This document shows, one piece after another, positions 29,120-45,570 of a stretch of 64,000 nt of DNA. Where the stretch lies: positions 806,001 to 870,000 of the forward strand of contig NZ_CP049783.1 in NCBI RefSeq assembly GCF_015710975.1, read 5' to 3'. Each line of letters begins with the position of its first letter. Position 1 is the first letter of the stretch. The stretch is from Paenibacillus polymyxa (GTDB taxonomy: Bacteria; Bacillota; Bacilli; Paenibacillales; Paenibacillaceae). A program made the position numbers and the translations under genes. The notes under the pieces are model-generated. The model ran no database searches, was not told the origin of the DNA, and saw only the letters and a list, made by a program, of their open reading frames with translations.

Positions 29120-30581
29120 ACTGTAGTTCCCCTTTCTGAATCCGCCATATATCAGTACAATATCGACGGACAATTTCCGGGTCATGCGTAACCATCACAA
29201 TGGCCGTGCCTGCCACTCTCAGCTGTTCCAACATATCCAGCATGACAAAGGTATTACGCGCATCCTGCCCAAAAGTCGGTTCGTCCAGCAGCAGCACTTC
29301 CGGCTCCCGGATCATTGCCGTAGCAATACTCAACCGCCTTTTTTGGCCCAGCGAGAGCTGATACGGATGGCGCTCATCCAGCCGCTCCAGTCCGAATTGC
29401 ATAAGCATTCGATCCACTCGTTCCCTACACTGTTCAGCTGTAAACAAACTCTTGGGTAACGAATACTCCAGTTCACTTCGCACGGTGTTCGCTACAAATT
29501 GCAGCTCTGGATTTTGAAACGCGAACCCAATGCGCTCAGCCAGTTGCTCCGTATTGCCTGCCTCAGCTCCGCACACGCGATAACACCCCTGCGTGTGAAG
29601 TAAGCGCATCATAGAGAGCAAAAGCGAGCTTTTGCCAGCCCCGTTTTCACCGACCACACCAACCCAGTCGCCAGGCTTCACCTGCGCTTGCTCCACATAA
29701 ATGACTGAGCTCCCTCCCCGAAGTCCGCTAAAATGTTCCAACTCCAGCAAATTTGTTGTACATGCTGAAGTGGACGGACTATCCGCAAGCAACGCATCAT
29801 TCTGCTGCGTCATAGAATCATTCCAACGTGGTGAAGACGATTCATCCCATACTCCCGGATACCATACGCCATACTCGGATAATGCCTGCCGGTGTATATG
29901 AAATACTTCTTCCGCCCTTCCGTCCGCAATAATCTCCCCTTGAGCAGAAAGCACCACAATCCGATCCACATCCTGGACAATTTCATTAATTTTATGCTCT
30001 ACAATCACCATCGTCTGGTCTGCCGAAATGTTGCGAATGGTATCCCACACCTGTGTAGTGCCTTCCTCGTCCAACAAGGCTGTCGGCTCATCCAAAAAAA
30101 GCACTTCCGGTTCCATAGCCAGCACCGATGCAATCGCCAGCCGCTGTTTCATTCCTTGTGACATGCTGGCAATGGGCAGATGTATATCATCCGTTGGAAG
30201 ACCAACCTGCATTAGCAGCTCGCGAATACGGGATGGCATCTGCTCCCTTGGAACCTGCTTATTTTCCAATACAAAAGCCAGTTCCTCGTCTGCATATGAC
30301 ATACAAAATTGTGTGTCGGGATCTTGAAATACAATACCAGAGAGACTCGGGATCACGGCAGCATCGTATTTCATAGGCACTTCTATCGTGCGTGGAATCA
30401 GACCGCTCAGCACCTGAAGCAGCGTTGATTTGCCGCATCCGCTCGGCCCCAGTAGCAGCAGCTTTTCCCCTTTGCGAACAGATAAGGACATATTGTGAAA
30501 AAGCAGCTCTTGCTCACCGGGGAATTTCAACCGAAGACGGGTGATCGAAGCCACCACATCTTCGTTGGCCGGGCTCATCAA
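29094..30581 (-). CDS. ykoD: ECF transporter ATPase, two fused ABC domains (YkoD-like)
   Basis: A 495-residue protein with two complete ABC modules. The first has Walker A GPSGCGKST, signature SQGMKQRLAIA and Walker B VLFLDEPTALLD. The second has GENGAGKSS, SLGQKRRLSIA and VLLLDEPTFGQD. A linker of about 60 residues joins them. The fusion replaces the usual EcfA/EcfA' pair and matches B. subtilis YkoD. It overlaps the stop of ykoE by four bases (ATGA). It energises uptake through YkoC/YkoE. Confidence 0.9.
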   Translation of the reverse strand: MMSPANEDVVASITRLRLKFPGEQELLFHNMSLSVRKGEKLLLLGPSGCGKSTLLQVLSGLIPRTIEVPMKYDAAVIPSLSGIVFQDPDTQFCMSYADEELAFVLENKQVPREQMPSRIRELLMQVGLPTDDIHLPIASMSQGMKQRLAIASVLAMEPEVLFLDEPTALLDEEGTTQVWDTIRNISADQTMVIVEHKINEIVQDVDRIVVLSAQGEIIADGRAEEVFHIHRQALSEYGVWYPGVWDESSSPRWNDSMTQQNDALLADSPSTSACTTNLLELEHFSGLRGGSSVIYVEQAQVKPGDWVGVVGENGAGKSSLLLSMMRLLHTQGCYRVCGAEAGNTEQLAERIGFAFQNPELQFVANTVRSELEYSLPKSLFTAEQCRERVDRMLMQFGLERLDERHPYQLSLGQKRRLSIATAMIREPEVLLLDEPTFGQDARNTFVMLDMLEQLRVAGTAIVMVTHDPEIVRRYCTDIWRIQKGELQYESVLSSS

Positions 30582-31174
30582 TCCAGCCCCTTATAATCTT
30601 GTTCCGTTGCCGGTCTCAAACTTCGCGTAACGCCGGTTACTTCCAATGCCTTAGCCAGATAGAAAGCGAATATTCCAGCAATCACAATACTGCCAATCAT
30701 CCGAAATCCAATATACAAAACATAGTTCCAGGTCGATAGCTGATCAATATACCCATAGCTGAAGTCTAAAATCAGAGAAGTGACAGCCGCTCCTGCCGCA
30801 GCTAGTGAAGCAATCCACAGGTTGGCGTTCCGATATAGAAAAATCGCAAAGAACAGCTCCGCTCCCAAGCCTTGCAGCAAACCGTAGTACAAGGTGGACA
30901 TGCCCCATTCACTTCCCAAAAAAGCACTGACGGTTGCCGCGGCCACCTCTGCCAAAATCGCAACACCCGGTTTGCGAATGATGAGATAAGCGAACGTGCC
31001 AGCCATAAACCACATGCCATACATTAGTTGTTCGGCGTGCATACCGAATGGTTTCATCAAATCATAGGCAGGTCCCCATATTTTGTAGACCAGCCCAAAC
31101 ACCACGGAGATTACAATCGTGACCAAAATATCAGTCAGCTTCAGTCCTTTGGACGCCCTTACATTCGTATTCAT
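30578..31174 (-). CDS. ykoE: ECF transporter S component (YkoE-like)
   Basis: A 198-residue membrane protein with five to six helices. KLTDILVTIVISVVFGLVYKIWGP and EWGMSTLYYGLLQGLGAELFFA mark it as YkoE, the substrate-binding subunit for hydroxymethylpyrimidine or thiamine. The Met at 31174 follows AAGGGGAG by ten bases. A TPP riboswitch and a strong terminator lie upstream. The B. subtilis partner ykoF (a thiamine-binding protein) is absent from this operon. Confidence 0.88.
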   Translation of the reverse strand: MNTNVRASKGLKLTDILVTIVISVVFGLVYKIWGPAYDLMKPFGMHAEQLMYGMWFMAGTFAYLIIRKPGVAILAEVAAATVSAFLGSEWGMSTLYYGLLQGLGAELFFAIFLYRNANLWIASLAAAGAAVTSLILDFSYGYIDQLSTWNYVLYIGFRMIGSIVIAGIFAFYLAKALEVTGVTRSLRPATEQDYKGLD

Positions 31175-31219
31175 TGTTGATACGCTCCCCTTTTTCTTTA
31201 AAATAGGCCATTTGGCCAT

Positions 31220-31252
31220 AAAAAAAGCCTGTCCGGAGCTGAATCTCCAGGC
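31220..31252 (-). terminator. Leader terminator, probable expression platform
   Basis: On the minus strand GCCTGGAG-ATTCAG-CTCCGGACAGGC followed by seven T residues, ending about 45 bases before ykoE. It lies downstream of the TPP aptamer, so TPP binding can promote premature termination. Confidence 0.75.
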
Positions 31253-31487
31253 AAGCTTTATGCGCAGTCATAAAATGATCACCATACATTATCAGTTGTC
31301 GACATATCTCATATAGCACAGCAGTCTACTGCACTAAAACCAAGCCAAAGTCAGGTACAGAACAAGACACGCTTGTCCGTCTGCAACTTTTTACAGACTG
31401 TAGCTCATTAACTTGATATAGGATATGAAACGTTTCTATCGACTAGCCGCCGCTAATCGGCGGTATTCCTGTTTCTTGTAAGGTGTT

Positions 31488-31580
31488 CTAGGTTTCTCTA
31501 CGCTGGCATTACCCAGATCAGATTTCACGGTCGGCGGCAAGGGCCACCCTCTCAGCCTGACTATCTCAAGCTCCCGACAA
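31488..31580 (-). ncRNA. TPP riboswitch (THI element)
   Basis: The minus strand reads the conserved THI-box core: GGCTGAGAGGGTGG, then CCGTGAAATCTGATCTGGGTAATGCCAGCGTAGAGAA, with closing pairs CGGGAGCT at the 5' side. These are the pyrimidine-sensing CUGAGA and the pyrophosphate helix segments. A CCGCCG/CGGCGG hairpin follows at 31447-31463, then the leader terminator. It should repress ykoEDC when thiamine pyrophosphate is abundant. Confidence 0.93.
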
Positions 31581-31629
31581 TGCTTTTTAATTCACTATAA
31601 TATATACCACATCCATGGCTTTGACAATC

Positions 31630-32427
31630 CTATAATCCGAAGAAACGTTTGGCCGTTTCCGTCGTCGCAATTTCGATCTCCATCATGCTGCGGCCTGTGC
31701 ACTCGGCAATCGTAGCGGCGATGTGAGCGAGATACACCGGCTCATTACGCCCTTCTTTGGGCTTCACGGGCAAATTACGCGGGGTCAAAAATGGAGCGTC
31801 CGTTTCAATCATCAACCGGTCCAATGGAATATCCCTGACCAGCTCCCTTAGATGCTTGCCGCGCCGTTCATCACAGATCCAGCCCGTAATACCGATATAC
31901 AGTCCCATCTCCACATACGTATGCAATTCCTGTGCAGTGCCGGTAAAACAATGCACCACCGCTTTATCAACAAGCCCCTGATGCTCTCGCAACATAGCGA
32001 CAAAGTCCTCATGCGCATCTCGTTCATGCAGGAATAAAGGCATATGCAGCTCCCCCGCCAGTTGAATCTGCTCTCCGAACCATCGGCGCTGTACATCACG
32101 CGGAGAAAAATCACGGTTATAATCCAACCCGCATTCCCCTATGGATACGACCTGCGGCTGAGCCGCAAGTTGGCGGAGCTGCTGAATTGTATCTCTGCTG
32201 CAACTTTTGGCATCATGGGGATGCACGCCAGCCGTCGTGTACAGTTTACCCGGATAACGAGCCGCATACTGAGCAGCCTCCCGACTGCTCCGGACACTGG
32301 TTCCGGTAATAATTAACGGTGTAATTCCTGCAGCCGCTGCTCTCTCTACCACCTGTTCCCGATCTGCATGAAACGAACGGTGCATCAAGTTCACACCAAT
32401 ATCAATTAACGGTGTACTCCTATCCAT
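31630..32427 (-). CDS. tatD: TatD-family metal-dependent nuclease
   Basis: A 265-residue TIM-barrel hydrolase. It has the TatD-proper start LIDIGVNLMHRSF (in place of DSHCHL), followed by TAGVHPHDAKS, GECGLDYNRDFSP (metal Glu), PLFLHERDAH, VVHCFTGT and MIETDAPFLTP, and so all metal-binding His/Glu/Asp positions. E. coli TatD is a 3'-5' exonuclease acting on DNA and RNA. It lies 20 bases after pnkp on the same strand, with GAAGGAGG before the ATG, so it is probably the last gene of the RNA-repair operon and could trim damaged ends. Confidence 0.85.
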   Translation of the reverse strand: MDRSTPLIDIGVNLMHRSFHADREQVVERAAAAGITPLIITGTSVRSSREAAQYAARYPGKLYTTAGVHPHDAKSCSRDTIQQLRQLAAQPQVVSIGECGLDYNRDFSPRDVQRRWFGEQIQLAGELHMPLFLHERDAHEDFVAMLREHQGLVDKAVVHCFTGTAQELHTYVEMGLYIGITGWICDERRGKHLRELVRDIPLDRLMIETDAPFLTPRNLPVKPKEGRNEPVYLAHIAATIAECTGRSMMEIEIATTETAKRFFGL

Positions 32428-32447
32428 CTCAATCCCTCCTTCGCAAA

Positions 32448-35057
32448 CTACAATCTCGGATCAATCGGCTCCGATTCCAGAGATAGCGCGGCAAGGACGC
32501 ATTCATGAATACGATCCACCGTATCCTTGCGGACAAAACGTTCTACGCCCTCCATACCAAGCGCTCCTTCCATCAGGGCATGACGCTCCTTTTTGTTCGT
32601 TCGGCGCTGCTTCAGACGCTTTAAATTCTCAGGGACAAGATAATCCATACCGTAAATGATATGCAAATACTTCCGGCCTCTCACCTTGATTGCAGGCTGA
32701 ATCATCTTGTCCCGATTTTTCATCAAAAAGCGTTCCGGCTTGATCACAATGCCCTCATGACCATCCTCTGTCATCTCGTTCCACCAGCGGATAACCTCTT
32801 CCTCGCTTGCTTCGTCCGTGATGACCCGATACTCTGTCTCCATAAACAGCGAGGACAGTCCTGCTAGCTCCCGGTTGTGCTCCATATGCCAAAGATGAGA
32901 TTGGTCAAAAAACGTCCGGCCGCTGTGGGCCAGTGTATGAAACGGTGCAATACGAATTTCATCCAGCCCGTCTACATCCCAGCAATATTTTTGAAAAGCT
33001 TCTTGGAACGTTACGGCATTGCCATATTTCCGTTCCATTTCCTCCAGCCAGTCTCCAACCTCCCGGCCTGCAGCCTTCGCTTGCTTCAGCTTGTCTACCA
33101 GCTTACTGCGATCCAGCAGAGCTGCTTCACCCACATGCGCATACTGTGCGGCAATCAGTTCCCGAGCCTTGAGATTCCACGGTACTATTTCCGCATCCAG
33201 CAACACGAAATCCGTCTGATTCCGCTCAAAATACCCGGCAGTCTGTAGATCGACATTCAGCTTTTCCAGGACCTGCTTCGCAAGGCCTGGTTCAAAGAAA
33301 GGGCGGCCGCTGCGGCTGTAGATCGTGCCTAATGTCGGGTATCCTACATATTCGACAGCTGCCTGTTCGTTTTTGAATAATAGCAAAATCGCCCGGCTAC
33401 CCATATGCTTTTTCTCCGCTACCATCGTCTGTACGCCTTGACCACGATAATAAGCCAGCGCCTCACGCGGATGCTCCAGATATCCTTCTTCTGCGGAAAC
33501 CGTGGGAGCAGGACTCATAGTTGGTGGAATGTACACCAGTTCCTCCATCGGTACTGTCACATGTGACACGGTATCTATAGCGGATTTGACCCATTCTCCT
33601 TGTACGCGCACTTCGCCATACGATTCCGTCAGTACACTGTAACCAGCGATGAGCTTACGTAAATTCGGCGGGGAAAACCGTTTTTTCTGCCACCTGACAA
33701 GTGGGCTATCGGGGTCATTCGCATAATTCTCATGAGCCGGTACGCTGACAAATTCCTTTTCCGGATAACGATAAGCGGTCAGCATGCCGCCAAATACCAC
33801 ACCCTGATCAATATTCACCGTCTGGTTCACAATCGTAGGCTGCGGTCTCGGATCATGTCCCCATACTACTATTTCTCCCGATTCATGGTCTACGAACCAA
33901 TCTTTGCGGATTGGTTTTCCGTCTGCATCCTGACCATCCGTATCTCCATAACGACAGTAATCAGAAATACGTGCCGACTGTTTGCCAATAAAATGATCCT
34001 TAATCCCCGCATGAGTCACAACCAGGTGTCGCAACCCATTTCTGCCGAAAATAAGATGAGAGGGCGCATGTAGCAGAAAATCCCTCAGCTCGCCTCTAAG
34101 CTGTTCCGCTGCTGCCTTACCCGCTTGTTGTTCATATTGAACCAGTTCCTCTGCAAATCGTTCATCTCCATGATTGAGAGTTACTTTTCTTCCATCAAGG
34201 TAACGACCGATTTTCCAGCCATGATTGCTGTCAATCATGTAGGCGAGTCCAGCATCCACGTGCTTTTTCCAGAACTGCACCGCTAATAACGATTCTGGGC
34301 CACGGCTCATCACATCTCCGACGGATACCAGTCTTCTGCCTTCTGGATGATGATATAGTCCTTCCGTATCTTCCATATATCCGAGCCGCTCTAGCACTTC
34401 CAGCATCTCCCGGTAGCACCCGTGGATGTCACCAATGATATCAATGCCTGCACCTATATCATGAAACAGCGGCTGAGCACGGCGGGCGAAGTTAAGCTTT
34501 TCTACATCCTTGAGGACATAACAAGCGTTAAAACCTTCTTCCCGGATACCGCGCAGGTTCCGCTTTAACAGCTGTGCCTGCTGCTTGACCCGTTGGCGAC
34601 CACGCGGATGCGCCCTACCTGCATCACGTTCCAGCAGCACAGATTCGGGCACATCCAGCACCAAGGCCATCACTGGTACATGCGCTTTGGCTGCCAGCTG
34701 TACATATTTCTGGCGATCCTCAGCATACAGATGGGTGGCATCCACAACCGTCAGCTTATTCAGACGACAGCGCATAGCCAGAATGGTATCCATCGCTTCA
34801 AACGCCTTGGCTGACATCTGCTGGTACTCATAAAACAGCACGTCCGATTCCAGCCTTGGAAGTCCGCTCCAGTCTATAAATTCCGTATCTCCGACCAGCT
34901 GGCGAAAATGATCTGAGGATACCACTTCCGTTTTCAATAGAATCCCTTCGCTCACCAGCCTGTCCAGTAAAGTGGTTTTGCCACTATTCGAGGCCCCTAC
35001 CAACACAACCAGTCCAGCATGCGGTAGATTAATCGTTCGTTCGGATGAAATGCTCAT
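32448..35057 (-). CDS. pnkp: Pnkp: RNA 5'-kinase / 2',3'-phosphatase / ligase
   Basis: An 869-residue three-domain RNA-repair enzyme. Kinase: P-loop GASNSGKT at residues 21-28. Phosphatase: calcineurin-like metal site GDIHGCYRE (about 209), VSVGDVMSRGP, HAGI and VVWGHDPRP. Ligase: adenylyltransferase motif KHMG with the nucleotidyl-accepting Lys near 550, and later ILLLFKNE, IVIKPERF and KVRGRKYL (motif V-like). It phosphorylates 5'-OH ends, removes 2',3'-cyclic phosphate and, with Hen1, joins the ends. Its ATG overlaps the hen1 stop by four bases. Length fits the Clostridium thermocellum enzyme (about 870). Confidence 0.95.
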   Translation of the reverse strand: MSISSERTINLPHAGLVVLVGASNSGKTTLLDRLVSEGILLKTEVVSSDHFRQLVGDTEFIDWSGLPRLESDVLFYEYQQMSAKAFEAMDTILAMRCRLNKLTVVDATHLYAEDRQKYVQLAAKAHVPVMALVLDVPESVLLERDAGRAHPRGRQRVKQQAQLLKRNLRGIREEGFNACYVLKDVEKLNFARRAQPLFHDIGAGIDIIGDIHGCYREMLEVLERLGYMEDTEGLYHHPEGRRLVSVGDVMSRGPESLLAVQFWKKHVDAGLAYMIDSNHGWKIGRYLDGRKVTLNHGDERFAEELVQYEQQAGKAAAEQLRGELRDFLLHAPSHLIFGRNGLRHLVVTHAGIKDHFIGKQSARISDYCRYGDTDGQDADGKPIRKDWFVDHESGEIVVWGHDPRPQPTIVNQTVNIDQGVVFGGMLTAYRYPEKEFVSVPAHENYANDPDSPLVRWQKKRFSPPNLRKLIAGYSVLTESYGEVRVQGEWVKSAIDTVSHVTVPMEELVYIPPTMSPAPTVSAEEGYLEHPREALAYYRGQGVQTMVAEKKHMGSRAILLLFKNEQAAVEYVGYPTLGTIYSRSGRPFFEPGLAKQVLEKLNVDLQTAGYFERNQTDFVLLDAEIVPWNLKARELIAAQYAHVGEAALLDRSKLVDKLKQAKAAGREVGDWLEEMERKYGNAVTFQEAFQKYCWDVDGLDEIRIAPFHTLAHSGRTFFDQSHLWHMEHNRELAGLSSLFMETEYRVITDEASEEEVIRWWNEMTEDGHEGIVIKPERFLMKNRDKMIQPAIKVRGRKYLHIIYGMDYLVPENLKRLKQRRTNKKERHALMEGALGMEGVERFVRKDTVDRIHECVLAALSLESEPIDPRL

Positions 35058-36493
35058 GAATTCTTCGGCTCCTTTCTGCGCGTAAATACAGCCATTTGGG
35101 TCGGTTGTCCAAAGCCTTCGACCTCTTCTCCGATCCCTTCCAGCGCTAATGAATAAGGAGCTTCCTCAATCCAATGCTCGCATCGTTCACGAAACTCGCT
35201 TCTGCTCCATTCAAAACGGTGATCGCCATGCCGCAGCTCTTGCTGATCCATACGATACACCTCATTATATTCTCGATTGGGAGTCGTCACGATCAGCACA
35301 CCCGGCTGATATTCTGTCACAATCGTATCCATCACCCGGTTCAGACGATGCTTATCCACATGCTCAATGACTTCACACAGGATCATCACATCTTTTCCCC
35401 GCAGTTGTTCATCATAATAAAAGAGAGAGCCCATCATAGGTGTAGGGCGAATTGCATCGGCATGCCTTTCCAGCTTGGCAAAACGCTCCACAGCCCTCAC
35501 CTGTGCATATGCAGACGGCTCCACCGCCCAAATCTCTTCAATGCCCTTCATTCGAGCCATCCGAGCCGAAAGCTTCCCTTCCCCTGATCCAAAATCTACG
35601 ATTTTCTGTCTTCGGGGCAGCTTGCGAATCACATCCATAATGGCTTGATACCGCAGCTCATTTAGCCGCATTACAGGCTGTTGCTTTCCTTCCTCCAGTG
35701 ACTGATCTTGCTGCTGATCCTGTTCGTGATTACGGTTTTGTTCTTGGACCGCATGTTTTTCAGTCTGTGTAGCAGCAGAATCAGATTGCTCAAATTGCTC
35801 AATCAGATTGGTAAAATGAAGCGTGCGTCGAATGATGAGCTCGCGCATCGGATGCTCTTGCAGCCAGCCTTCACCGTAACGTCTCAGCTTGTCAAACTCT
35901 TCTTCGCTAATATAGTAGTGCTTATAATTATCCAACACTGGAATCAACAGCAATAACTGACGCAGCGCATATTGCACCGTCTGATGGCCACTTAGCGTGA
36001 CATATCTGACGGTGCTTCGATTTTTCAGCTGAAAAGAATAATCCGCTTCACCTCGTTCGATGGTCACTTGATAGCCCAGCGGCGCAAATAGTCCCTCCAC
36101 CACAGCATCCGGCAAATCCGACGCAACAGGCCCAAACGATAACTCCAGCGCAAAAGGATGCGTCACCCACGCTGTATAGTCTTCCTTGGGTTTGCCGTTC
36201 AGGGCTGTGCCAAGCGCGCCGCGAATATAGGTACAGAACAAGCTGCTGGTTACAAACTCCCGGTCATTAATATATTGTGTAATGTCATAGCTATCCGGAC
36301 TGTTTTTGACCAAATCTATTGAATCTGGTGAAGCCTGAATGACGATTTCTGCCTCTTCCTCTGTAAAAGTGGTGTACACCATGCGTACACGTGCACCCTT
36401 TTCCGTGCGATCATACGTATTGTAAGGGTTCTTGGCGAGCAAATGCGAAATCATCCCAGCATTGTTTCCGGTTGCTTTTAGCGTGATGTGCAT
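35054..36493 (-). CDS. hen1: Hen1: RNA 3'-terminal 2'-O-methyltransferase
   Basis: A 479-residue bacterial Hen1. The N-terminal half (1 to about 235) is the Pnkp-binding part that activates the ligase in known systems. An acidic Gln-rich linker (about 240-275) follows. The C-terminal methyltransferase has KIVDFGSGEGKLSARMA (SAM loop) and LCEVIEHVDKHRLNRV, which carries the Mn-binding E-x-x-E-H set, plus VTTPNREYNEVY. It methylates the 2'-OH at the 3' break before sealing, so that the repaired site resists the same nuclease. AAGGAG precedes the ATG by nine bases. Coupled to pnkp by a 4-base overlap. Confidence 0.94.
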   Translation of the reverse strand: MHITLKATGNNAGMISHLLAKNPYNTYDRTEKGARVRMVYTTFTEEEAEIVIQASPDSIDLVKNSPDSYDITQYINDREFVTSSLFCTYIRGALGTALNGKPKEDYTAWVTHPFALELSFGPVASDLPDAVVEGLFAPLGYQVTIERGEADYSFQLKNRSTVRYVTLSGHQTVQYALRQLLLLIPVLDNYKHYYISEEEFDKLRRYGEGWLQEHPMRELIIRRTLHFTNLIEQFEQSDSAATQTEKHAVQEQNRNHEQDQQQDQSLEEGKQQPVMRLNELRYQAIMDVIRKLPRRQKIVDFGSGEGKLSARMARMKGIEEIWAVEPSAYAQVRAVERFAKLERHADAIRPTPMMGSLFYYDEQLRGKDVMILCEVIEHVDKHRLNRVMDTIVTEYQPGVLIVTTPNREYNEVYRMDQQELRHGDHRFEWSRSEFRERCEHWIEEAPYSLALEGIGEEVEGFGQPTQMAVFTRRKEPKNS

Positions 36494-36514
36494 ACTCCAC
36501 TTCTCCTTCCCTGC

Positions 36515-37333
36515 TTATGTTTTCCATACTTCATTCACCGCAGCGCGGAACATCTCGTCCAATTGCTGATCCCGTCCGCCCTCCATATGCTGAAGCAAAG
36601 GCGCCTTCTGTTCAAAATAAGCAATTTGCTGTTCAATAAAGTCATTCACCACCGAAAGCTGCGGCTCCATATCCAGCTCCTCACCCGCTTTTTTACGCTC
36701 CAGCAAAAGCTCGATCACCTGATAAAGTTCGGTATCAGCCGGAATGAATTCCTCCAGCAAGTCTACGAATTCCATCGGAGGCATGCTGTTGTATCGTTCA
36801 ATCCAGCCACAGGCCAGCAGCGGGCGCAGCACGTAAAAATACTTTTTAATCTTCACCTGTTCACCTTGCAAATAATCCCGATAATTTCCCCGCGCCATAT
36901 TCAGATAATGGTACATACATGACTTCGGAGAGAAGGTTAACGGCGAGATCGCACGAATCTGATCAGCCACTGAATACTGCTCCAGATAGGGAATCGGAGA
37001 TTGCAGCCATTCCAGCAAAGGCGGATTGGATTTGCGAAATAAATGGAGCGCCTTTTTCAAATCCCAGCCGTTTATATCCAGCATATTGCTGATTGGCCGC
37101 TCAATCACATCCCGCTTATCAAAAATAGATAAATACCATTCTATGGGTCTTACATAAATAAATCGAACATCATAGTCACTGTCCTGTGAAGGAAACCCCC
37201 ATGCCCGACTGCCTGATTCACAGGCGTATACAATGCGCACCTGCTCCTCCTGCTCCAACGCGCGCAGCTCACGCAAAATCGTTTCGCGCATTTCCGGTTG
37301 AATGAAACCCTGCCCATGCTTCACATCTGTCAT
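36515..37333 (-). CDS. RlaP-type predicted nucleotidyltransferase
   Basis: A 272-residue polymerase-beta-superfamily nucleotidyltransferase. The catalytic core is ESGSRAWGFPSQDSDYDVRFIYV: the G-S-R loop followed by the metal-binding D-x-D pair. MARGNYRDYLQGEQVKIKKYFYVLRPLLAC forms the helical part seen in RlaP (RNA-ligase-associated) proteins. It may add nucleotides to RNA 3' ends before ligation; that role is predicted, not shown. It lies 21 bases before hen1, with GGGAGG ahead of the ATG, so it is part of the repair operon. Confidence 0.8.
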   Translation of the reverse strand: MTDVKHGQGFIQPEMRETILRELRALEQEEQVRIVYACESGSRAWGFPSQDSDYDVRFIYVRPIEWYLSIFDKRDVIERPISNMLDINGWDLKKALHLFRKSNPPLLEWLQSPIPYLEQYSVADQIRAISPLTFSPKSCMYHYLNMARGNYRDYLQGEQVKIKKYFYVLRPLLACGWIERYNSMPPMEFVDLLEEFIPADTELYQVIELLLERKKAGEELDMEPQLSVVNDFIEQQIAYFEQKAPLLQHMEGGRDQQLDEMFRAAVNEVWKT

Positions 37334-37352
37334 GTTGTTCCCTCCCTTATCA

Positions 37353-38024
37353 TTAAAGTAATTCCCGAATCTGTTCTCTAATCGACTCCTCCGTTTCAGC
37401 TACCGATAAGCGGCGAAGACGCTCTGTCGTTTCCTCACCCCACATCTCAGAAGGCCATTCCTTGAGTACATGAAGCGCTGCATGACGATTGGAGGTCACC
37501 GGACTCCAGAGTCCGGCAGCAACTAGCTCTTGCCCCATTCCTTCGTAAGAAGACAATAGCTGAAGCAAAATACCCAGACACTGATGCGCTTCATACTCCG
37601 GTCCAAAGCCTGGCACATCAGCAGGACCAGAAGCAATCTCTTCCAGAGGCAAGCGCTTGTCTGCAAAAGCCACCAGCTTACGAGCCCGTTGTTCATCCTC
37701 TGTCCTGATGAGTTCAAAGTACAGATTAGGCTTGACTGGGTGTTTGCTTAATTGATCAAATAGCACGGGCCATACATCTAGTGCTAACATTCGAGCTGCG
37801 CGAATGGCACAGTGAAGATGCGGTGAATCTGCATGATGTAGTTCCTGCTCTACCAGCTTCATCCACTGCGGATCGTCCATCATCTGCTGGCATATCGACG
37901 CGTAACGTTTACGTAATTCCGGCGTCCATTCATGCTCATAACGTGCCTCCCATGAATCGTCTTCTTCATCGAGGAAGTCCGCAATATCCATGATGATCGT
38001 AAGATGCTTCACAGTCGTACACAT
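37353..38024 (-). CDS. C-terminal half of a split HEAT-repeat protein
   Basis: 223 codons of alpha-helical repeat sequence (for example PHLHCAIRAARMLALDVWPVLFDQLS, NRHAALHVLKEWPSEMW). It has no ribosome binding site of its own. Its first codons overlap the end of the upstream HEAT gene in a different frame. Removing one GT from the GTGT at about 38015-38018 would fuse the two into one protein of about 520 residues with an unbroken helix (NYLRHARLCTTVKHLTII). I read it as the lost C-terminal part of that protein, or a coupled second subunit. Role in RNA repair unknown; perhaps a scaffold or damage sensor. Confidence 0.55.
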   Translation of the reverse strand: MCTTVKHLTIIMDIADFLDEEDDSWEARYEHEWTPELRKRYASICQQMMDDPQWMKLVEQELHHADSPHLHCAIRAARMLALDVWPVLFDQLSKHPVKPNLYFELIRTEDEQRARKLVAFADKRLPLEEIASGPADVPGFGPEYEAHQCLGILLQLLSSYEGMGQELVAAGLWSPVTSNRHAALHVLKEWPSEMWGEETTERLRRLSVAETEESIREQIRELL

Positions 38025-38920
38025 AGTCTAGCATGACGAAGGTAGTTGCCTATGACCATAGCGGCATGCTCATAATCGTCTATACTTTCCGCAGGTCCGC
38101 CTGCCGCCAGCAAAGCCGACAGTATATCGCCTGCTCCGTCAAACAACTCCCGATCAATGTGCGGTACAGCCATGGCTGTATGCAGCTCGCCTTTATGAGC
38201 GCATTCATAAGCAAGGTACTCATACATGACATTATTGCGGAATCCTTCCCGTAATAACCAATCACGTATTTCCTGCCGCGCCGGCTCCAGTCGTTCCACG
38301 ACGTGAATACGTCCCCAACCATGTACCTGTAAGGCTAAATTATACAACTGCTCATTGGCCTGATCCGAAATATTACGGATAGCTACAGCCGCATATAGCG
38401 TGAATTCATCATGCTTGGCTAGTGTTAAAATAAGCTCGTGGTGCTGCTCTGTCTCCAGCAATCCGAGCAGCGCAATACCGACCTTCACCACATTGCGATG
38501 TGCTCCGTGTTCGGCCAGCCAACGCGCCTCCTCATACAATCGATCCGGCTGAATTGCTGGATGTTCGCGCACCGCATCTAGCAGCGGATCAATCAGGCTG
38601 AGCGCATTTCCCTCCATCAAGCGTACATACGTCTCACGTCTTGTTTTCATCCCTGGCTTGCGGCATTGTCTGGACAACAAGTGTGCTAGCTCCTTAATTT
38701 TCTCAGTCTCTCCATCTCCGCCAGCGCCATGATGTCCAAACGCTCCATCTAGCCCTCCTGCCACCCAACGCATCGTATGACCTGCCCAATATTCCTCATC
38801 ATCCGGCAAATGATCATCCGTAAGCCTGCCCTGAGGGTCCAATCCCTGCTTAATCGTTTCATAAATCGAAAGCTTACCTACCCATGGATATAACACTTCA
38901 TTTTTGAATCGTCCAAACAT
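38009..38920 (-). CDS. HEAT-repeat protein of the RNA-repair operon (N-terminal half)
   Basis: A 303-residue helical protein, first gene of the repair operon. Repeats such as NVVKVGIALLGLLETEQHHELILTLAKHDEFTLYAAVAIRNI are HEAT-like. It begins MFGRFKNEVLYPWVGKLSIYE, with AGAAGGGTGAGG upstream. It ends CVRL directly after a GT duplication that shifts the frame; the next frame carries on the fold. HEAT proteins commonly act as binding platforms, and in this context it could hold damaged RNA or protein partners. Function not known. Confidence 0.7.
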   Translation of the reverse strand: MFGRFKNEVLYPWVGKLSIYETIKQGLDPQGRLTDDHLPDDEEYWAGHTMRWVAGGLDGAFGHHGAGGDGETEKIKELAHLLSRQCRKPGMKTRRETYVRLMEGNALSLIDPLLDAVREHPAIQPDRLYEEARWLAEHGAHRNVVKVGIALLGLLETEQHHELILTLAKHDEFTLYAAVAIRNISDQANEQLYNLALQVHGWGRIHVVERLEPARQEIRDWLLREGFRNNVMYEYLAYECAHKGELHTAMAVPHIDRELFDGAGDILSALLAAGGPAESIDDYEHAAMVIGNYLRHARLCVRL

Positions 38921-39118
38921 GTTGCCTCACCCTTCTGTTATGTATGACTTTTTACTTATCGTGCTACCTTATGTCCCTATAATCCTTTATTTTGGAAGTC
39001 ATGAACATGGTGAAAGTATTACAAAGATGAATAAATTACCTTTTTCCTGCATCCCTTCCCTGATAGAATAAAGGGATACTTGTTTTCGGAGAACGGCTAC
39101 AGAAACGGGGAATGCATC
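38921..39118. promoter_or_regulatory. Divergent promoter region, repair operon and WYL genes
   Basis: This 198-base gap separates the RNA-repair operon from the regulator pair transcribed the other way. TAGAAT at about 39064 is a candidate -10 for the WYL genes. I found no clear -35, no sigma-54-type element and no LexA box. WYL autoregulation and control of the operon from here is inferred from layout. Confidence 0.4.
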
Positions 39119-40444
39119 ATGGCGAGAGAGAGTTTTGATAAAGAAATTCAATTCCTGCGTATGCTCACACTAACAAGCGGCGCTTATAATCGGCAGCAGT
39201 TTGCAGACAGACTTGGCATTTCGGTACATACCTTTGATAAAACGATCCGGCGCCTCAAGGAAATCGTCCAATCCGTACAACAGCAGTTGCCTGCGGAACA
39301 GGGACATGATTTTAATGAGATGCTGCGCTTTAATTATTACGAATCCACTGATCCGTTATTGTTATTCCTGTTTCGGGCCAAATCGCTCAAGGAATCGGAA
39401 AGCGTCCGCTTATCCCTTCTGCTGACAGCGCTGCAATCACAGCCTATGACCACCATGGAACTGCTGGACGCTTGCTGCAATGGGCTGCCTTCCGACAGTG
39501 CACTGCCGGATGAAAAAACAATCCGTTCTGATCTGAAATATCTGGTCGAAGTCGGCGTAGTTCGTAAGGAGCCTGGCGGCAGACCCTATCGCTATGCTGT
39601 CCGTAATGATCTGGTGACAGAACTGACGGACGAGGAATTACTGGACTTATATGATTTTGTGGACGTTATGGCCAACACTCAGCTCCCCTCTGTGCAGGGA
39701 TATCTGTTGCGAGATCATCTTAAAAAGGCCATGCGCCGCCAGCTCGGAGATCGGGAGATGGCAGAGCCTTTTTTATATAAATACCATTATTATTCACGCA
39801 TTCTGGACGAAGCCCATATTCATCCGCTTCTGCATGCCATTCGGCAACGCCGCTGCGTAACCTTTTTATATTTTTCGGCATCCAAACGAAGCATGTACGG
39901 GTCACAGAACACAAACCCACGATTTGAAAAAGAGACTGAAGGCCGTGAACATACCATTCTGCCCTTGCAAGTCATCTATGATCATCAATATGGACGTTGG
40001 TACGTGCTTGGTCATGTGGGCGGCAAAGGAATCATGAAGTTTCGTATGGAGGGCATGACCCAATTGGTGGAGGGCAAGCCTGTCCCAGAACAGCTTTATG
40101 CCGACCTGTTAGCCGTGTTGGAGGAAAAAATGCGGTACAGCTGGCTTGTTGATACGGGTCGTCCCGTGAAGGTAAGGGTACGTTTTTTTAATCCCGAAGG
40201 GGCAAAACGCAACTTTATTCGGGAACGTGTGCTGTCACAAGGACAATGGGGTACGATTACGGAGGAAGAAAGTGAATCCTTTATCTACGAAATCACAGTG
40301 AATGGAATCACTGAGATTAAACCGTGGATTCGCAGCTTCGGATCAAGCTGTGAGGTATTGGAGCCCCAGCGGCTGCGTAAGGAATTCAGACAGGAATGGA
40401 AGGAGCTGCAAGCCTATTATGAGCCTGTTCGAGAAAATATTTAA
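39119..40444 (+). CDS. WYL-domain transcriptional regulator
   Basis: A 441-residue protein. The N-terminal helix-turn-helix (YNRQQFADRLGISVHTFDKTIRRLKEIV) is followed by a second winged helix (PDEKTIRSDLKYLVEVGVVRKEPGG). The WYL domain reads HTILPLQVIYDHQYGRWYVLGHV, where the W-Y-x-L ligand residues appear as WYVL. A WCX-type C-terminal extension ends in EIKPWIRSFGSSCEVLEP. WYL regulators sense nucleic-acid or nucleotide ligands in several defence and repair systems. GGGGA lies seven bases before the ATG. It overlaps the second regulator by 26 bases. Confidence 0.85.
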   Translation: MARESFDKEIQFLRMLTLTSGAYNRQQFADRLGISVHTFDKTIRRLKEIVQSVQQQLPAEQGHDFNEMLRFNYYESTDPLLLFLFRAKSLKESESVRLSLLLTALQSQPMTTMELLDACCNGLPSDSALPDEKTIRSDLKYLVEVGVVRKEPGGRPYRYAVRNDLVTELTDEELLDLYDFVDVMANTQLPSVQGYLLRDHLKKAMRRQLGDREMAEPFLYKYHYYSRILDEAHIHPLLHAIRQRRCVTFLYFSASKRSMYGSQNTNPRFEKETEGREHTILPLQVIYDHQYGRWYVLGHVGGKGIMKFRMEGMTQLVEGKPVPEQLYADLLAVLEEKMRYSWLVDTGRPVKVRVRFFNPEGAKRNFIRERVLSQGQWGTITEEESESFIYEITVNGITEIKPWIRSFGSSCEVLEPQRLRKEFRQEWKELQAYYEPVRENI

Positions 40445-41219
40445 CTATCAGATTGTCTCACGGTTGGATGAATCGGGCGCTTTTGCTACCACCTCGCAGG
40501 AAAGAGTCTGGCTTAAGTCCATGCTTGCAGACTCGGCAGCGACAGAGGCTTTTACCCCGTCTACACTTGATAAGCTTCGGCAATTACTTGCAGACGACGA
40601 GCCATTGGAGGCCGATGGCAGCCTGCGCGAAAAGGCAGGAGTTCCTGCTGCTTCGGTTTATCATCCGCTCCTGCGTGAATTGCGTTCCATTCTGCGATCC
40701 CGTTCAGGCATCTGTATGACCTACAAACTGCGCAACGGACGCCTACATGAGCGAATGTCCGGATTTCCCTATAAGCTGGAGTTTTCCATGGTCAAAAAAG
40801 AATGGAGTCTGCTATGGTATAATCGCCGACATCGCGCATTCATGTCTACTAAACTATCCAACATCGTAACCGTTACGGAGGATGAGATTCTTCCTGAAGA
40901 AGCCGAGAAGTTTACCCAACGAATACTCGGTATACTGGAGTCGCGCAAAGAACAGGGCATCATTGAAATTATTCCTGTATACAACGGTGAAATGTCTCGT
41001 ATTTTATATGCTTTTTCCTGTTTTGAAAAAGAGGTCGAATATGTACAGGAAGCTGATACCTATCGTATTACGCTCACCTTCCAGGCAGACGAATGTGAAT
41101 ATGTGCTATCCAAAATCCGTTTCCTTGGCAAACGTGTCAAGGTCGTCCAAGGCTCACGGCTGATCTCACGAATGAAAGAAACAACAGCCAAAGCCCTCGC
41201 ACGGTACGAAGAGGAATAG
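40419..41219 (+). CDS. Second WYL-family regulator
   Basis: A 266-residue protein. It starts MSLFEKIFNYQIVSRLDESGAF inside the end of the upstream WYL gene. Its middle has SGFPYKLEFSMVKKEWSLLWYNRRHRAFMSTKLSNI, a WYL-like fold in which WSLLWY replaces the usual triad. A C-terminal WCX-like part has DTYRITLTFQADECEYVLSKIRFLGKRVKVV. No clear DNA-binding domain is present, so it may pair with the first regulator and supply ligand sensing. Overlap implies co-translation. It ends before a strong terminator. Confidence 0.7.
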   Translation: MSLFEKIFNYQIVSRLDESGAFATTSQERVWLKSMLADSAATEAFTPSTLDKLRQLLADDEPLEADGSLREKAGVPAASVYHPLLRELRSILRSRSGICMTYKLRNGRLHERMSGFPYKLEFSMVKKEWSLLWYNRRHRAFMSTKLSNIVTVTEDEILPEEAEKFTQRILGILESRKEQGIIEIIPVYNGEMSRILYAFSCFEKEVEYVQEADTYRITLTFQADECEYVLSKIRFLGKRVKVVQGSRLISRMKETTAKALARYEEE

Positions 41220-41248
41220 CTGCTGCAGAAATTAGGATCTATCCATGT

Positions 41249-41291
41249 AAAAAGCCCCCCCTCCGTCTGTTAATGAGACGAAAGGAGGGCC
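41249..41291. terminator. Bidirectional terminator between convergent genes
   Basis: GCCC-CTCC-GTCT pairs with AGAC-GGAG-GGGC (near-perfect, one C run longer), with A-rich and T-rich flanks. It serves the WYL genes on plus and the aldo/keto reductase on minus. Confidence 0.75.
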
Positions 41292-41377
41292 TATTAAATA
41301 CAGTACGTATAAACGAAACGAGGTCATGTACTTACATCCGCACACGTCTGCTGTAACAAGCTAGTCCGTAATGTCAG

Positions 41378-42355
41378 TTACGGCAAGGCTTGTCCACGTG
41401 CACTGACATACAATTGATACCATTCCTCACGGGTCATCAGCTCGCTCTGGCGTTCAGCATCCTGACATGCTTGGATTCGTTCAGGATTGGCGCTGCCAAT
41501 GACAGGCTGAATCCGTGCCGGATGCTTCATAAGCCAGCCCAGGACGATCGCTTCGCGTGTCGTCCCCTTTTCAGAGGCCAGCTTCTGCACCAGTTCTGCC
41601 GTCTTATGGATATGCTCAGGTTTTCCTTCCAGAGAACCTCCGCTAAAACGCCCCTGCGCCAGCGGTCCCCAAGCCTGGAGCTGAATATCCTCAGTTTGGC
41701 AATATTCCAGCAAACCTTCGCCAAAATGTACATTCGTCCCCGCCTGCTGGTTCACGTGTACGGTCTGATCTATAAAATGCAGATGTGCCAGGCTCATCTC
41801 CAGCTGATTAGCAATCAGCGGCTCCGTTAGGCTGCGCTCCAGAAAACGAATTTGGCTTACATTCATATTGGAAACGCCAAAATGCCGTACTTTGCCGGAT
41901 GTCTTAAGCTCGCTGAACGCCTTTGCTACTTCTTCCGGCTCTACCAGCGGATCGGGGCGGTGCAGCAGCAGGATGTCTAAATACTCAGTACCCAGACGCT
42001 TCAAGATACCATCTACGGACTCCATAATATGATCATATGAGAAATCAAAACGGCCTGGGAGCGTGCCATCCGGCAAAAAAATGCCGCATTTGGACTGAAT
42101 TACGATTTGTTCACGCAATCCGGGCTGTCCCTTTAAAATCCGACCGAAAATTTCTTCCGCTTTTCCCATACGATAGATATCCGCATGATCAAACATCGTA
42201 ATCCCGATGGATTGTGCAGCTTCTACAGCTCTCTCCGCTTCAACGACATGCTCCTGTGTATACGGTGCATGGCTCCATTCTCCACCAAAAGGCATGCAGC
42301 CAAGTACCAGCCGACTATCGGAGATTCCACGTTTCTGTAAAGGCATAATTTTCAT
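41378..42355 (-). CDS. Aldo/keto reductase
   Basis: A 325-residue NADPH-dependent oxidoreductase. The catalytic tetrad is visible: Asp in FDHADIYRMGKAEEIFG (Tyr in the same motif), Lys in IQSKCGIF and His in LLLHRPDPL. The cofactor-binding end reads IQPVIGSANPERIQACQDA. It resembles E. coli YdhF, which reduces ketones. Physiological substrate unknown. AAGGAGGAGCAGC precedes the ATG. It stands between the repair island and the lantibiotic locus and belongs to neither. Confidence 0.88.
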   Translation of the reverse strand: MKIMPLQKRGISDSRLVLGCMPFGGEWSHAPYTQEHVVEAERAVEAAQSIGITMFDHADIYRMGKAEEIFGRILKGQPGLREQIVIQSKCGIFLPDGTLPGRFDFSYDHIMESVDGILKRLGTEYLDILLLHRPDPLVEPEEVAKAFSELKTSGKVRHFGVSNMNVSQIRFLERSLTEPLIANQLEMSLAHLHFIDQTVHVNQQAGTNVHFGEGLLEYCQTEDIQLQAWGPLAQGRFSGGSLEGKPEHIHKTAELVQKLASEKGTTREAIVLGWLMKHPARIQPVIGSANPERIQACQDAERQSELMTREEWYQLYVSARGQALP

Positions 42356-42422
42356 GCTGCTCCTCCTTGAACCCTCAAAGTATTCCTTGCTTCATCAACA
42401 TTCGAATAGTTCGTCAAACCGC

Positions 42423-42463
42423 AAAAATCAGACGGAAAACATGTCGTTTCCCGTCTGATTTTA
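42423..42463 (-). terminator. Terminator at the end of the lantibiotic locus
   Basis: AAAATCAGACGG pairs with CCGTCTGATTTT, a 12-bp stem with T tail, 28 bases after the TraX-family gene. Confidence 0.85.
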
Positions 42464-42490
42464 TTTTAGTTACTTATTAGACAGCCCTTC

Positions 42491-43249
42491 TTATATGTAA
42501 TAATCAATAGCCAACTTCAGCAGATAAAGCGCGAGCAAATGCAGCGGATAAAACAAATAGAAGAAGGTTCGTGGACCTTTTCCCCTCTCTCCGTTATATC
42601 GGGATAGCAAAGGGAGTGCAAAAATACAGGCCCCGCCGATCGCAAACGGATAAAGATATTCGTTCATTGTGCTGGCGTTGATGCCCATGATGCTGAGCGA
42701 ATCGGGAACAGCCCATATAATGATGACTCCGAAAATGAACATAAGCGCAATTATTGCAATAATCCATCCGTTGTAAATCTTCTGTTGTTTGCGAGCCACA
42801 TAGAAAGCCAGAACCAGGAACACTCCAATCACACTCCAGTCTCCCAAAAGAGAGACTACGCAAAGAGCCGAAATAGCCAAGTATTTAAGCACAGGATTGG
42901 TCGTGTTGTCATAGAACCATATTGCCAGTAGGCCCATCAACAACGTTAGCATGATGTTTCCCGAAGTATACCAATCTTTAAATACCAATCCGTAAGGCAC
43001 CACACTGGCTAGCCCGGTTAGAGCAAGGCGCATTGTATATTTTTTGAAGCTTCTGGTATGGATATATCCTTCGGCTACAAAAAAAGCCATGATAGGCAAT
43101 GTAATTCTGCCTACCACCTGAAAGCCCAAAAAATCGGCAAAAAATAGCCCTCCAATATGATCAATTAGCATTGCCAATACTGCAATTAATTTTAAACTGG
43201 TGGCATCAATGCCTTTCACCTCTGCTTGAACGGATAATCTTTGTTCCAT
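42491..43249 (-). CDS. paenN: TraX-family N-acetyltransferase, probable lantibiotic acetylase
   Basis: A 252-residue membrane protein with about eight helices. It shows the TraX pattern: SLKLIAVLAMLIDHIGGLFF, then VVGRITLPIMAFFVAEGYIHTRSFKKYTMRL, and the ending FFYLFYPLHLLALYLL. TraX acetylates the N-terminal alanine of F pilin. Here the predicted mature lantibiotic also begins with Ala, and paenibacillin is known to be N-acetylated, so this gene very likely does that step. GGGGAGG precedes the ATG. It is the last gene of the locus, 46 bases after agrA. The symbol is from memory of the published cluster. Confidence 0.8.
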   Translation of the reverse strand: MEQRLSVQAEVKGIDATSLKLIAVLAMLIDHIGGLFFADFLGFQVVGRITLPIMAFFVAEGYIHTRSFKKYTMRLALTGLASVVPYGLVFKDWYTSGNIMLTLLMGLLAIWFYDNTTNPVLKYLAISALCVVSLLGDWSVIGVFLVLAFYVARKQQKIYNGWIIAIIALMFIFGVIIIWAVPDSLSIMGINASTMNEYLYPFAIGGACIFALPLLSRYNGERGKGPRTFFYLFYPLHLLALYLLKLAIDYYI

Positions 43250-43295
43250 ATTCCTCCCCTTTTCTTCCCGAAGAACTATGCCCTCCGTATCTATT

Positions 43296-44075
43296 CTATT
43301 CGTAAACAGGTCTGTTCAGGAGGCTCCGGTCTCCCATCTTATCTAAGAGGTGCTTCAACAATTGGCGGGAAACGGGAATAATGCGCCTTGCTTCTCCGGA
43401 ATTCTGATTGGTTTGAAAAATGATCTCCTTCTTGCTCTTATCTATAGATTCCACCTTCATCAGGTTTACGATAAATGCCCGATGACACCGGAACAACCTT
43501 GGGTCCTTAGCCTCAATATCTTTCAGATCGCCGTAAAACTCAAGAGTTCTGTTTTCGGAAACCAGACGGATTTTGTGGGGAACACCGGTTGTTTCAAAGT
43601 AATAAATGCTGGAGAAGGAAATTTGAAATTTCGTAAATTTATTGTCGAGTATAAACCAATCATTGACATCCAACACAGGCTTTCTTTGATGGGCAACAAC
43701 AAGAACTTCTCTGACCTTTTTTTCCATTTCATCCTGAGTAGCATCCTTGATAATGAAATCAAGAGCTGCTACCTTATATTGGAAGGTAAGCGGAGACAGA
43801 TGACCGTGGGTAGTTACAAAGACAATATGCCCATACATATCATATTTTCTGATTTCCTGGGCAACTTCCAGTCCCTTCATCTGACAACCAGAGATTTCAA
43901 TATCAAGGAAATACAAGTTATTCGCACAAGCTTTAGATTCAAAAAGCAGGAGATCCGGCTTACTGGTGGCAATGAGATTGCTGCAGCAGATGCCAAGTTC
44001 CTCGCAGCTTTTACGGACCATCTTTTCCATTATGCGCTGCTGGATAAACTGATCTTCCAGAATAAAAATATTCAT
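43296..44075 (-). CDS. agrA: AgrA-type LytTR response regulator
   Basis: A 259-residue regulator. The receiver domain has IFILEDQ, the phospho-acceptor Asp in NLYFLDIEISG, the switch Thr region VFVTTHG and Lys in IIKDAT. The LytTR DNA-binding domain covers about 140-250 (IYYFETTGVPHKIRLVSENRTLEFYGDL ... FRCHRAFIVNLMKVE). It should bind direct repeats ahead of the agr or lantibiotic promoter once phosphorylated by AgrC. It overlaps agrC by four bases. Confidence 0.88.
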   Translation of the reverse strand: MNIFILEDQFIQQRIMEKMVRKSCEELGICCSNLIATSKPDLLLFESKACANNLYFLDIEISGCQMKGLEVAQEIRKYDMYGHIVFVTTHGHLSPLTFQYKVAALDFIIKDATQDEMEKKVREVLVVAHQRKPVLDVNDWFILDNKFTKFQISFSSIYYFETTGVPHKIRLVSENRTLEFYGDLKDIEAKDPRLFRCHRAFIVNLMKVESIDKSKKEIIFQTNQNSGEARRIIPVSRQLLKHLLDKMGDRSLLNRPVYE

Positions 44076-45400: not shown

Positions 45401-45570
45401 TTTTTGTTCAATTTCCAAACTTTTGGGTTGACTGGTTCATAGAACAACCCGAAACAAATCCCTCCTCCTTCACCTCTTTTACTCATATGCTCCAGTAGCT
45501 TAGCCTTGAGTCTCTGAGTATGGTTATTTCTGTATTCTTTAATATTCTTGATATTGTTCATAATTGGCAT
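45397..45570 (-). CDS. agrD: AgrD-like autoinducing peptide precursor
   Basis: A 57-residue precursor nested between agrB and agrC and easily missed. An N-terminal amphipathic basic helix (NNIKNIKEYRNNHTQRLKAKLLEHM) leads to GGGICFGLFYEPVNP and a basic tail. In Agr systems the ring Cys is followed by four residues and then a conserved acidic-Pro motif; here CFGLF followed by YEPVNP fits exactly. The likely product is a Cys-Phe-Gly-Leu-Phe thiolactone with a short N-terminal tail. The start is at 45570, or at the Met at 45561, which lies better spaced after AAGGAG. It overlaps agrB and agrC. Confidence 0.82.
   Translation of the reverse strand: MPIMNNIKNIKEYRNNHTQRLKAKLLEHMSKRGEGGGICFGLFYEPVNPKVWKLNKK

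Follow-up and report, generated by a model that had tools for sequence, protein, structure and literature searches.

What do the Pnkp/Hen1 RNA-repair genes of Paenibacillus polymyxa respond to, and do they act alone? The question is raised by a 64,000-nucleotide stretch of contig NZ_CP049783.1 (positions 806,001 to 870,000 of the forward strand; hereafter the window, in which position 1 is the first base). Pnkp heals and seals RNA ends, and Hen1 acts by methylation. In the window, reading frames and profile matches give the minus-strand gene order HEAT-RlaP-Hen1-Pnkp-TatD, with the regulator genes WYL1 and WYL2 diverging on the plus strand. A preliminary description of the locus viewed it as a single operon-specific pathway, which overlooked its organization at the level of a regulon. 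Judged from sequence, the operon appears to be the Pnkp/Hen1 branch of a WYL-controlled RNA-damage regulon, a reading to which we assign a probability of approximately 0.7. The near-invariant 22-bp element that it shares with other repair loci is new here, with Burroughs and Aravind (2016) outside the comparison; its conservation could not be seen from the single sequence on which the preliminary description drew.

Removal of redundancy left 47 of the WYL1 upstream regions collected from 95 loci. The 8-mer CCATGTTC is present in 36 of these 47 regions, whereas in 20 shuffles no 8-mer exceeded 8. A 22-bp element with the consensus GAACATGGCGAAAGTATTACGA is found in 46 of the 47 regions at no more than 7 mismatches (42 of the 46 copies have no more than 3), always oriented towards WYL1, and starts 76-170 bases (mean 110) ahead of the gene. 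The copy in the window occupies positions 39003-39024, and the search pattern, which comprises 20 bases of the element, matches once in the window against a chance expectation of 0.01. A -10-like hexamer follows exactly 18 bases on, on the operon strand, at 34 of the 46 WYL1-linked sites and 22 of 36 other sites, with the next-best spacing accounting for 12 and 8, respectively. Because the element ends at about -35 with a constant spacing, this arrangement is suggestive of an activator acting together with RNA polymerase. At no more than 1 mismatch, the element is present in 172 of the 246 genomes of the order that were searched, and the same pattern read backwards is present in 2 of the 246; no exact copy is found in viral contigs.

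The element also stands in front of repair genes elsewhere in the genome. Of the four sites with 0-1 mismatches in the window's genome, the first is the window copy, the second precedes, by 107 bases, an RtcB gene located some 4 kb outside the window (408 aa; G000:C1:873043-874269, L266 9044-10270), and the third lies about 670 bases before an SPFH gene. Across the order, 92 of 150 sites among the matches listed have no listed WYL1 within 2.6 kb, and 59 of the 66 genomes concerned have a listed WYL1. Thirty-eight sites that lie more than 2.6 kb from any WYL1 frame were classed by the first recognized downstream gene within 2.5 kb, which leaves 35 after removal of 3 duplicates. Known repair genes follow 22 of these 35 sites (SPFH 9, TROVE 4, RtcB 2, a further RtcB type 2, Hen1 2, HEAT 1, Pnkp 1 and RlaP 1), a family of approximately 700 aa without a Pfam domain follows 11, and neither follows 2. 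Some of the sites lie within about 10 kb of a WYL1 island, and others are on other contigs. In L279 (G094), the element is located after Pnkp and before SPFH. For HEAT genes in the genomes on the site list, an element lies no more than 3 kb upstream in the right orientation in 9 of 18 among the matches listed, and 6 of these 9 genes are outside WYL1 islands, with the element at 84-2089 bases. Of the 9 HEAT genes without a near element, 8 share a contig stretch with WYL1 and lie behind other island genes; the remaining one, in G001, belongs to a distant subfamily and has no element among the matches listed.

Two of the element-associated genes deserve a closer description. The SPFH leaders of the window's genome and of L275 contain what we read as a T-arm-like sequence, and the L275 leader, one of 8 loci scanned, has a borderline Rfam tRNA match (29.3 bits versus 29); both agree with the tRNA-like RNA that Burroughs and Aravind reportedly describe. 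In the SPFH leader of the window's genome, Rfam has no match that reaches E 1. The family of approximately 700 aa (L270 7564-9687, L277 6830-8932, L278, L283 and others; one of the 11 copies is in fragments) occurs in 29 of 45 same-genus genomes, is absent from the window's genome and matches an unknown phage family, PHROG 33734, at 4.4e-83. The C-terminal part may be TerD-like. In L318, a Hen1 gene follows the gene of this family.

The repair genes themselves are combined in variable ways. In the 246 genomes, the Pnkp ligase domain was found in 112, TatD (E 1e-60) in 66, WYL1 (E 1e-80) in 167, RlaP (E 1e-40) in 195 and the intact HEAT protein (E 1e-20) in 31; proximity counts involving WYL1 or RlaP are lower bounds, with 150 matches listed for each. 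At least 59 of the 112 Pnkp genomes have RlaP within 5 kb of the ligase domain, and RlaP is equally near in at least 20 of 67 TatD matches and at least 16 of 31 HEAT matches (within 5 kb in each case), on the same strand throughout. Fetching every fourth listed RlaP row yielded 37 islands, two of them cut by contig ends and 36 with an RlaP frame. In these 36 islands, WYL1 is divergent in 31, Pnkp and Hen1 are present in 14, RtcB in 13, TROVE in 14, further RtcB types in 3 and 2, HEAT in 6, KptA in 5, TatD in 4 and SPFH in 2 (the identities of RtcB, TROVE, KptA and SPFH were checked by Pfam on examples). The repair-gene neighbours are exchangeable modules: ligases (Pnkp/Hen1 or RtcB) and putative scaffolds (TROVE, SPFH, HEAT) vary, and KptA and TatD are accessories. 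The constant part of the islands is the divergent WYL1/WYL2 pair facing RlaP, with WYL1 and RlaP within 5 kb of each other for 113 of the 150 WYL1 among the matches listed. The modular RNA-repair systems of Burroughs and Aravind (2016) reportedly include RlaP with RNA ligases, TROVE, SPFH with tRNA-like RNA, and KptA, all of which recur here. In a separate set of islands (L207-L219), RlaP is flanked by two RtcB genes in 11 of 13, and most of them also contain an AAA ATPase, KptA and TatD, with this WYL pair again in place.

These counts bear on the proposal that the locus is an operon-specific machine against ribotoxins, in which one HEAT scaffold would carry TatD as the trimming, RlaP as the adding, Pnkp as the sealing and Hen1 as the methylating enzyme. 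All of the genes lie in one tight operon, TatD has the motifs that we take to be catalytic, and TatD directly follows KptA in 16 of 20 islands, which were fetched mainly for the proximity of TatD to RlaP, and directly follows RlaP in G129, G232 and G434. However, 5 of 31 HEAT matches and 7 of 67 TatD matches have Pnkp within 12 kb, HEAT is directly followed by RtcB at 21 of the 40 named loci that reach 44% identity, and the window's own genome carries a split HEAT gene. HEAT and TatD accompany RtcB more often than Pnkp/Hen1 in the loci examined. By the preliminary description, a lack of conservation of these neighbours with pnkp/hen1 would refute the pathway; the survey of gene neighbourhoods did not refute it, with the qualification that few HEAT and TatD matches lie near Pnkp. 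A dedicated machine of this type is a tentative alternative that we consider rather unlikely.

The distribution of the element points to WYL1 as the candidate protein that reads it. WYL1 and the element occur together in 166 of the 246 genomes, WYL1 alone in 1, the element alone in 6 and neither in 73. In 10 genera tallied in which WYL1 is sometimes absent, the element is present in 130 of 131 WYL1-positive genomes and in 4 of 46 WYL1-negative genomes (for example, 20/20 versus 1/13 in genus g2 and 4/4 versus 1/10 in genus g4). Among RlaP genomes, the element is found in 159 of 160 with WYL1 and in 3 of 35 without it, and among Pnkp genomes without WYL1, it is found in 1 of 9. Alternatively, another regulator or an alternative sigma factor could use the element as its promoter, with WYL1 and WYL2 as merely co-regulated neighbours. 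The fixed 18-base spacing to the -10 box fits a sigma factor or a non-WYL activator too, but the element tracks WYL1 in the 10 genera tallied and is mostly missing from RlaP genomes that lack WYL1, which makes this alternative doubtful.

WYL1 carries WYL and WCX domains in Pfam, and a helix-turn-helix (HTH) domain is detected solely in an orthologue, at or below the cut-off. WYL2 has no Pfam match at E 0.001 and matches the PADLOC WYL profile at 1.1e-10; one orthologue matches Pfam WYL at 2.4e-4, slightly under the curated cut-off, and the WYL2 orthologues show WYL alone, below the cut-off. The two divergent WYL regulators of the preliminary description are retained with regard to the divergence of both genes and the WYL/WCX domains of WYL1, and WYL2 is assigned as a WYL-like protein by the matches above. 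Because their N-termini are conserved in relatives, WYL1 and WYL2 probably start at 39119 and 40419, respectively, rather than at the first possible starts. Neither profile matches a PDB chain (the matches of WYL2 are at chance level only).

Known regulators offer precedents for such a pair. RtcR is described as the RNA-repair activator of the Salmonella rsr-yrlBA-rtcBA operon, triggered by tRNA fragments (PMC7790460), and as a sigma-54-type activator with a CARF domain (PMC4012209); PafBC of mycobacteria is described as a heterodimeric WYL activator that is triggered by single-stranded DNA and uses a special promoter motif with the housekeeping sigma factor (PMC11804915); and RNAs with cyclic ends are proposed as signals for WYL and CARF regulators (PMC9503650). 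The present system is similar to that of RtcR in that RNA-repair genes stand under a nucleic-acid-sensing regulator, the sensing being predicted here, and differs in its predicted WYL pair and housekeeping-type promoter. The likeness to PafBC lies in the two WYL proteins and in the special promoter motif with the housekeeping sigma factor, which is predicted here; in contrast, PafBC responds to DNA damage and has its motif at -26. The composition HTH-WYL-WCX in both partners, which characterizes a PafBC-type pair, is not found, as WYL1 shows WYL and WCX and the WYL2 orthologues show WYL only. The promoter layout would fit activation of transcription, which in a PafBC-type pair depends on a nucleic-acid ligand. 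Taken together with the published functions or predictions for Pnkp, Hen1 and RlaP, the RtcR, PafBC and cyclic-end RNA precedents make an RNA-damage activator formed by WYL1 and WYL2 the most economical reading, and WYL1/WYL2 are predicted to bind the element, to activate rather than repress, and to sense an RNA-damage ligand. The literature titles and abstract openings among the matches listed contain no mention of the element or the regulon, with Burroughs and Aravind (2016) outside this comparison, and no paper was found that combines WYL, Paenibacillus and RNA ligase.

Several observations weigh against a WYL-controlled regulon. The Fisher p of 4e-54 for the co-occurrence of WYL1 and the element ignores kinship, and this co-occurrence is in part inherent in the comparison, as WYL1 comes with a copy of the element; the stronger point is therefore the lack of element copies at other places, too, in genomes without WYL1. 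Eight genomes have Pnkp but neither WYL1 nor the element, which indicates that Pnkp manages without the element, and correctly oriented elements lie within 9 kb of only 24 of 37 Pnkp ligase domains among the matches listed. The fourth site in the window's genome precedes a gene for an unknown 153-aa protein and an MFS transporter gene. At no more than 3 mismatches, this genome has 6 sites compared with 5 hits of the backwards control, so only close matches count. The 35 sites away from WYL1 are a non-random draw (3 from this genome, 9 evenly stepped, 6 first-listed per genome and 17 in 16 hand-picked loci), and for the hand-picked loci L269 and L279, the proximity to Pnkp or HEAT was known beforehand from coordinates. 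Additionally, no HTH or WCX is detected in WYL2, in contrast to PafC.

In the proposed scheme, the tandem WYL1/WYL2 pair would sense a product of RNA damage and turn on separate repair modules together, namely, HEAT-RlaP-Hen1-Pnkp-TatD and, elsewhere in the genome, RtcB and SPFH, the SPFH protein of the proposed regulon being preceded by a putative tRNA-like RNA. According to published functions or predictions, Pnkp would heal both ends and seal them, and Hen1 would 2'-O-methylate the 3' end. RlaP, which PMC7824862 predicts to restore lost bases at RNA ends, would restore lost nucleotides ahead of sealing. Judged by the company that they keep, the HEAT-like protein may be a solenoid scaffold and TatD may trim or clear broken ends; the role of TatD is the weakest link of the scheme.

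The features of the locus are as follows.

31630-32427, minus strand: TatD-family metal-dependent nuclease, the final gene of the operon (PF01026, 253 bits)
32448-35057, minus strand: Pnkp, kinase-phosphatase-ligase (TIGR04075)
35054-36493, minus strand: Hen1, RNA 3'-terminal ribose 2'-O-methyltransferase (TIGR04074)
36515-37333, minus strand: RlaP, Pol-beta nucleotidyltransferase (PF10127, 332 bits)
37353-38024, minus strand: HEAT-like gene, C-terminal part, the second half of a frameshifted gene
38009-38920, minus strand: HEAT/ARM-like alpha-solenoid protein, N-terminal part, the first half of the frameshifted gene
38979-38984, minus strand: -10-like hexamer GATTAT, 18 bases past the element, predicted promoter of the repair operon
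39003-39024, plus strand: 22-bp element GAACATGGTGAAAGTATTACAA, predicted regulator site, from which the operon reads away on the minus strand
39119-40444, plus strand: WYL1 regulator (WYL and WCX), start shifted to a conserved ATG
40419-41219, plus strand: WYL2, WYL-like partner, with a 26-base overlap with WYL1

The genes of the operon are separated by gaps of 19 (HEAT C-terminal part to RlaP), 21 (RlaP to Hen1) and 20 bases (Pnkp to TatD) or overlap, and 410 bases then separate TatD from the next gene; a single transcription unit is therefore likely. The coupling of Pnkp and Hen1 by a 4-base overlap and their flanking by an RlaP-type nucleotidyltransferase and TatD, both noted in the preliminary description, agree with the coordinates and profile scores. 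Consensus promoter and terminator scans of the operon are near the shuffle level (14 versus 10.5 and 7 versus 6.9, respectively). No Rfam match at gathering scores is present in positions 29000-45000 of the window, and no tRNA or tmRNA genes are present in the window or in 11 loci scanned. An agr-like quorum-sensing group adjoins the island at positions 42491-46135 (TraX-like protein, LytTR response regulator, GHKL kinase and AgrB).

Pnkp matches TIGR04075 over residues 8-869 with 787 bits (cut-off 750) and contains the P-loop GASNSGKT, DIHG and the ligase motif KHMGSR; the expected phosphatase motifs GDxxDRG and GNH[DE] are unmatched as written, and the protein reads GDVMSRGP and SNHG. Hen1 matches TIGR04074 with 364 bits (cut-off 340) and its Hen1_L domain with 161 bits, and it contains EVIEH and H.DH, which we take to be characteristic motifs. 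Both proteins match solved Pnkp/Hen1 chains (3ty8, 4drf, 4j6o, 4gp6, 3jwg and 4dqz). Among known systems, the Pnkp/Hen1 RNA repair of Clostridium thermocellum and Anabaena is the closest. The window locus shares with the known systems a three-domain Pnkp and a two-part Hen1 encoded by adjacent genes and differs from them in adding RlaP, a HEAT-like protein, TatD, the WYL pair and the shared element. PMC4411300 treats the related Pnkp1-Rnl-Hen1 complex and already reports a shared operon of Pnkp and Hen1. The commoner form in the order is a divergent Pnkp-like protein of approximately 862 aa with a 421-aa Hen1 (Pfam Hen1_N; L063, L079, L115-L120 and others), and in 74 of the 112 Pnkp genomes, the ligase-profile match is only E 2.6e-37 or weaker, some of these being fragments.

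RlaP far exceeds the cut-off of 23 bits for PF10127, and its Pol-beta active-site residues GSRAWG...SDYDVRF, which include the GS and DxD that we take to be the Pol-beta active-site motif, are invariant in 19 of 19 aligned proteins. A sequence search found no solved relative of RlaP beyond a chance-level match; its structural model (pLDDT 86.8) resembles aminoglycoside and HalB nucleotidyltransferases (best E 1.3e-5).

TatD is nearest to TatD-family hydrolases, including E. coli TatD; it belongs to the subfamily TIGR00010 (213 versus 206 bits) and falls below the cut-offs for the E. coli equivalog PRK10425 (318 versus 395 bits) and, in NCBIfam, for the defence family QatD (84 versus 230 bits). 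It could be an unrelated nuclease that is by chance the last gene before cobalt-transport genes. The share of TatD matches within 12 kb of a listed WYL1 (at least 27 of 67) would allow this, but all 27 lie opposite WYL1, on the operon strand, and homologues at about 70% identity occur in islands with different flanks. A chance position of TatD is accordingly improbable, and TatD as a mere flank of the island is unsupported by the strand and neighbour counts.

The HEAT-repeat genes of the preliminary description, given there in the plural, are two frames of what is one gene of about 525 aa in relatives, and the interpretation as two genes (38009-38920 and 37353-38024) was rejected. The nearest intact copy, from Paenibacillus ottowii (G420), is one 524-aa open frame with 94% identity to the window protein, from which a single frameshift separates the window copy within 229 aligned columns around the break; the frames of the same-genus G426 and G432 (L298 and L299) are also open past the break point. 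With the N-terminal half as the query, 32 of the 295 genomes searched in the family have a match; 16 of these 32 have one open frame of 524-575 aa (one with an internal stop) and 3 have one of 613-635 aa; in the remainder, which includes the window's genome, the frames are shorter or broken. In the same neighbourhood of G412 (L092), pnkp and most of hen1 are lost, and the HEAT gene is decayed. The gene of Paenibacillus caui (L078/L160) is likewise split, with frames of 280 and 199 aa, and because of this second split copy, the HEAT gene may tolerate or often suffer breakage.

The model of an intact relative (pLDDT 85.8) has helices throughout and the predicted form of an alpha-solenoid; its best Foldseek matches in the PDB are mostly HEAT/ARM proteins, none of which reaches E 0.001, and no Pfam family matches at E 0.1 or better. 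Of the 40 named loci with at least 44% identity, 30 contain an RNA-repair gene on the HEAT strand no farther than 6 kb away, compared with 1 of 39 named loci below 44%, so a partnership with RNA repair characterizes most of the close HEAT subfamily but not the wider family. A devotion of the whole family to RNA repair was rejected on the same count and on the 10 of 40 closer loci that have no repair gene within 6 kb on the same strand. A specificity of HEAT for Pnkp/Hen1 was also rejected, RtcB being the commoner neighbour.

Finally, a defence or genomic island of functionally independent repair genes, co-located and linked through shared transfer, is very improbable: the patchy distribution, the decayed copy in G412, the frameshift in the window and the sub-threshold QatD match of TatD fit it, but the strict strand arrangement (0 of 113 WYL1-RlaP pairs on the same strand among the matches listed) and the recurrence of the element at sites not linked to WYL1 oppose it. 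With regard to mobile carriage, no plasmid match and no HEAT relative in the phage collection were found, and the PADLOC defence annotation consists of a generic WYL, Cas3c via the WCX part, QatD and two weak hits.

For a WYL-controlled regulon, the shared, near-invariant promoter element and the candidate regulator make the question of what induces Pnkp/Hen1 directly testable, since an element-driven reporter would reveal the toxins, phages or stresses that raise the response. The element also points, by sequence alone, to possible new repair components, namely, the putative HEAT-like scaffold family, TatD and the family of approximately 700 aa without a Pfam domain. More broadly, we consider it an even chance that the Paenibacillaceae and their relatives run an RNA counterpart of the SOS response, in which WYL1/WYL2 would sense broken RNA and co-activate modules (Pnkp/Hen1/RlaP, RtcB, TROVE, SPFH with tRNA-like RNA, HEAT, KptA and TatD) via an element 18 bases before the -10 box, and in which the protein of approximately 700 aa would be a new repair component.

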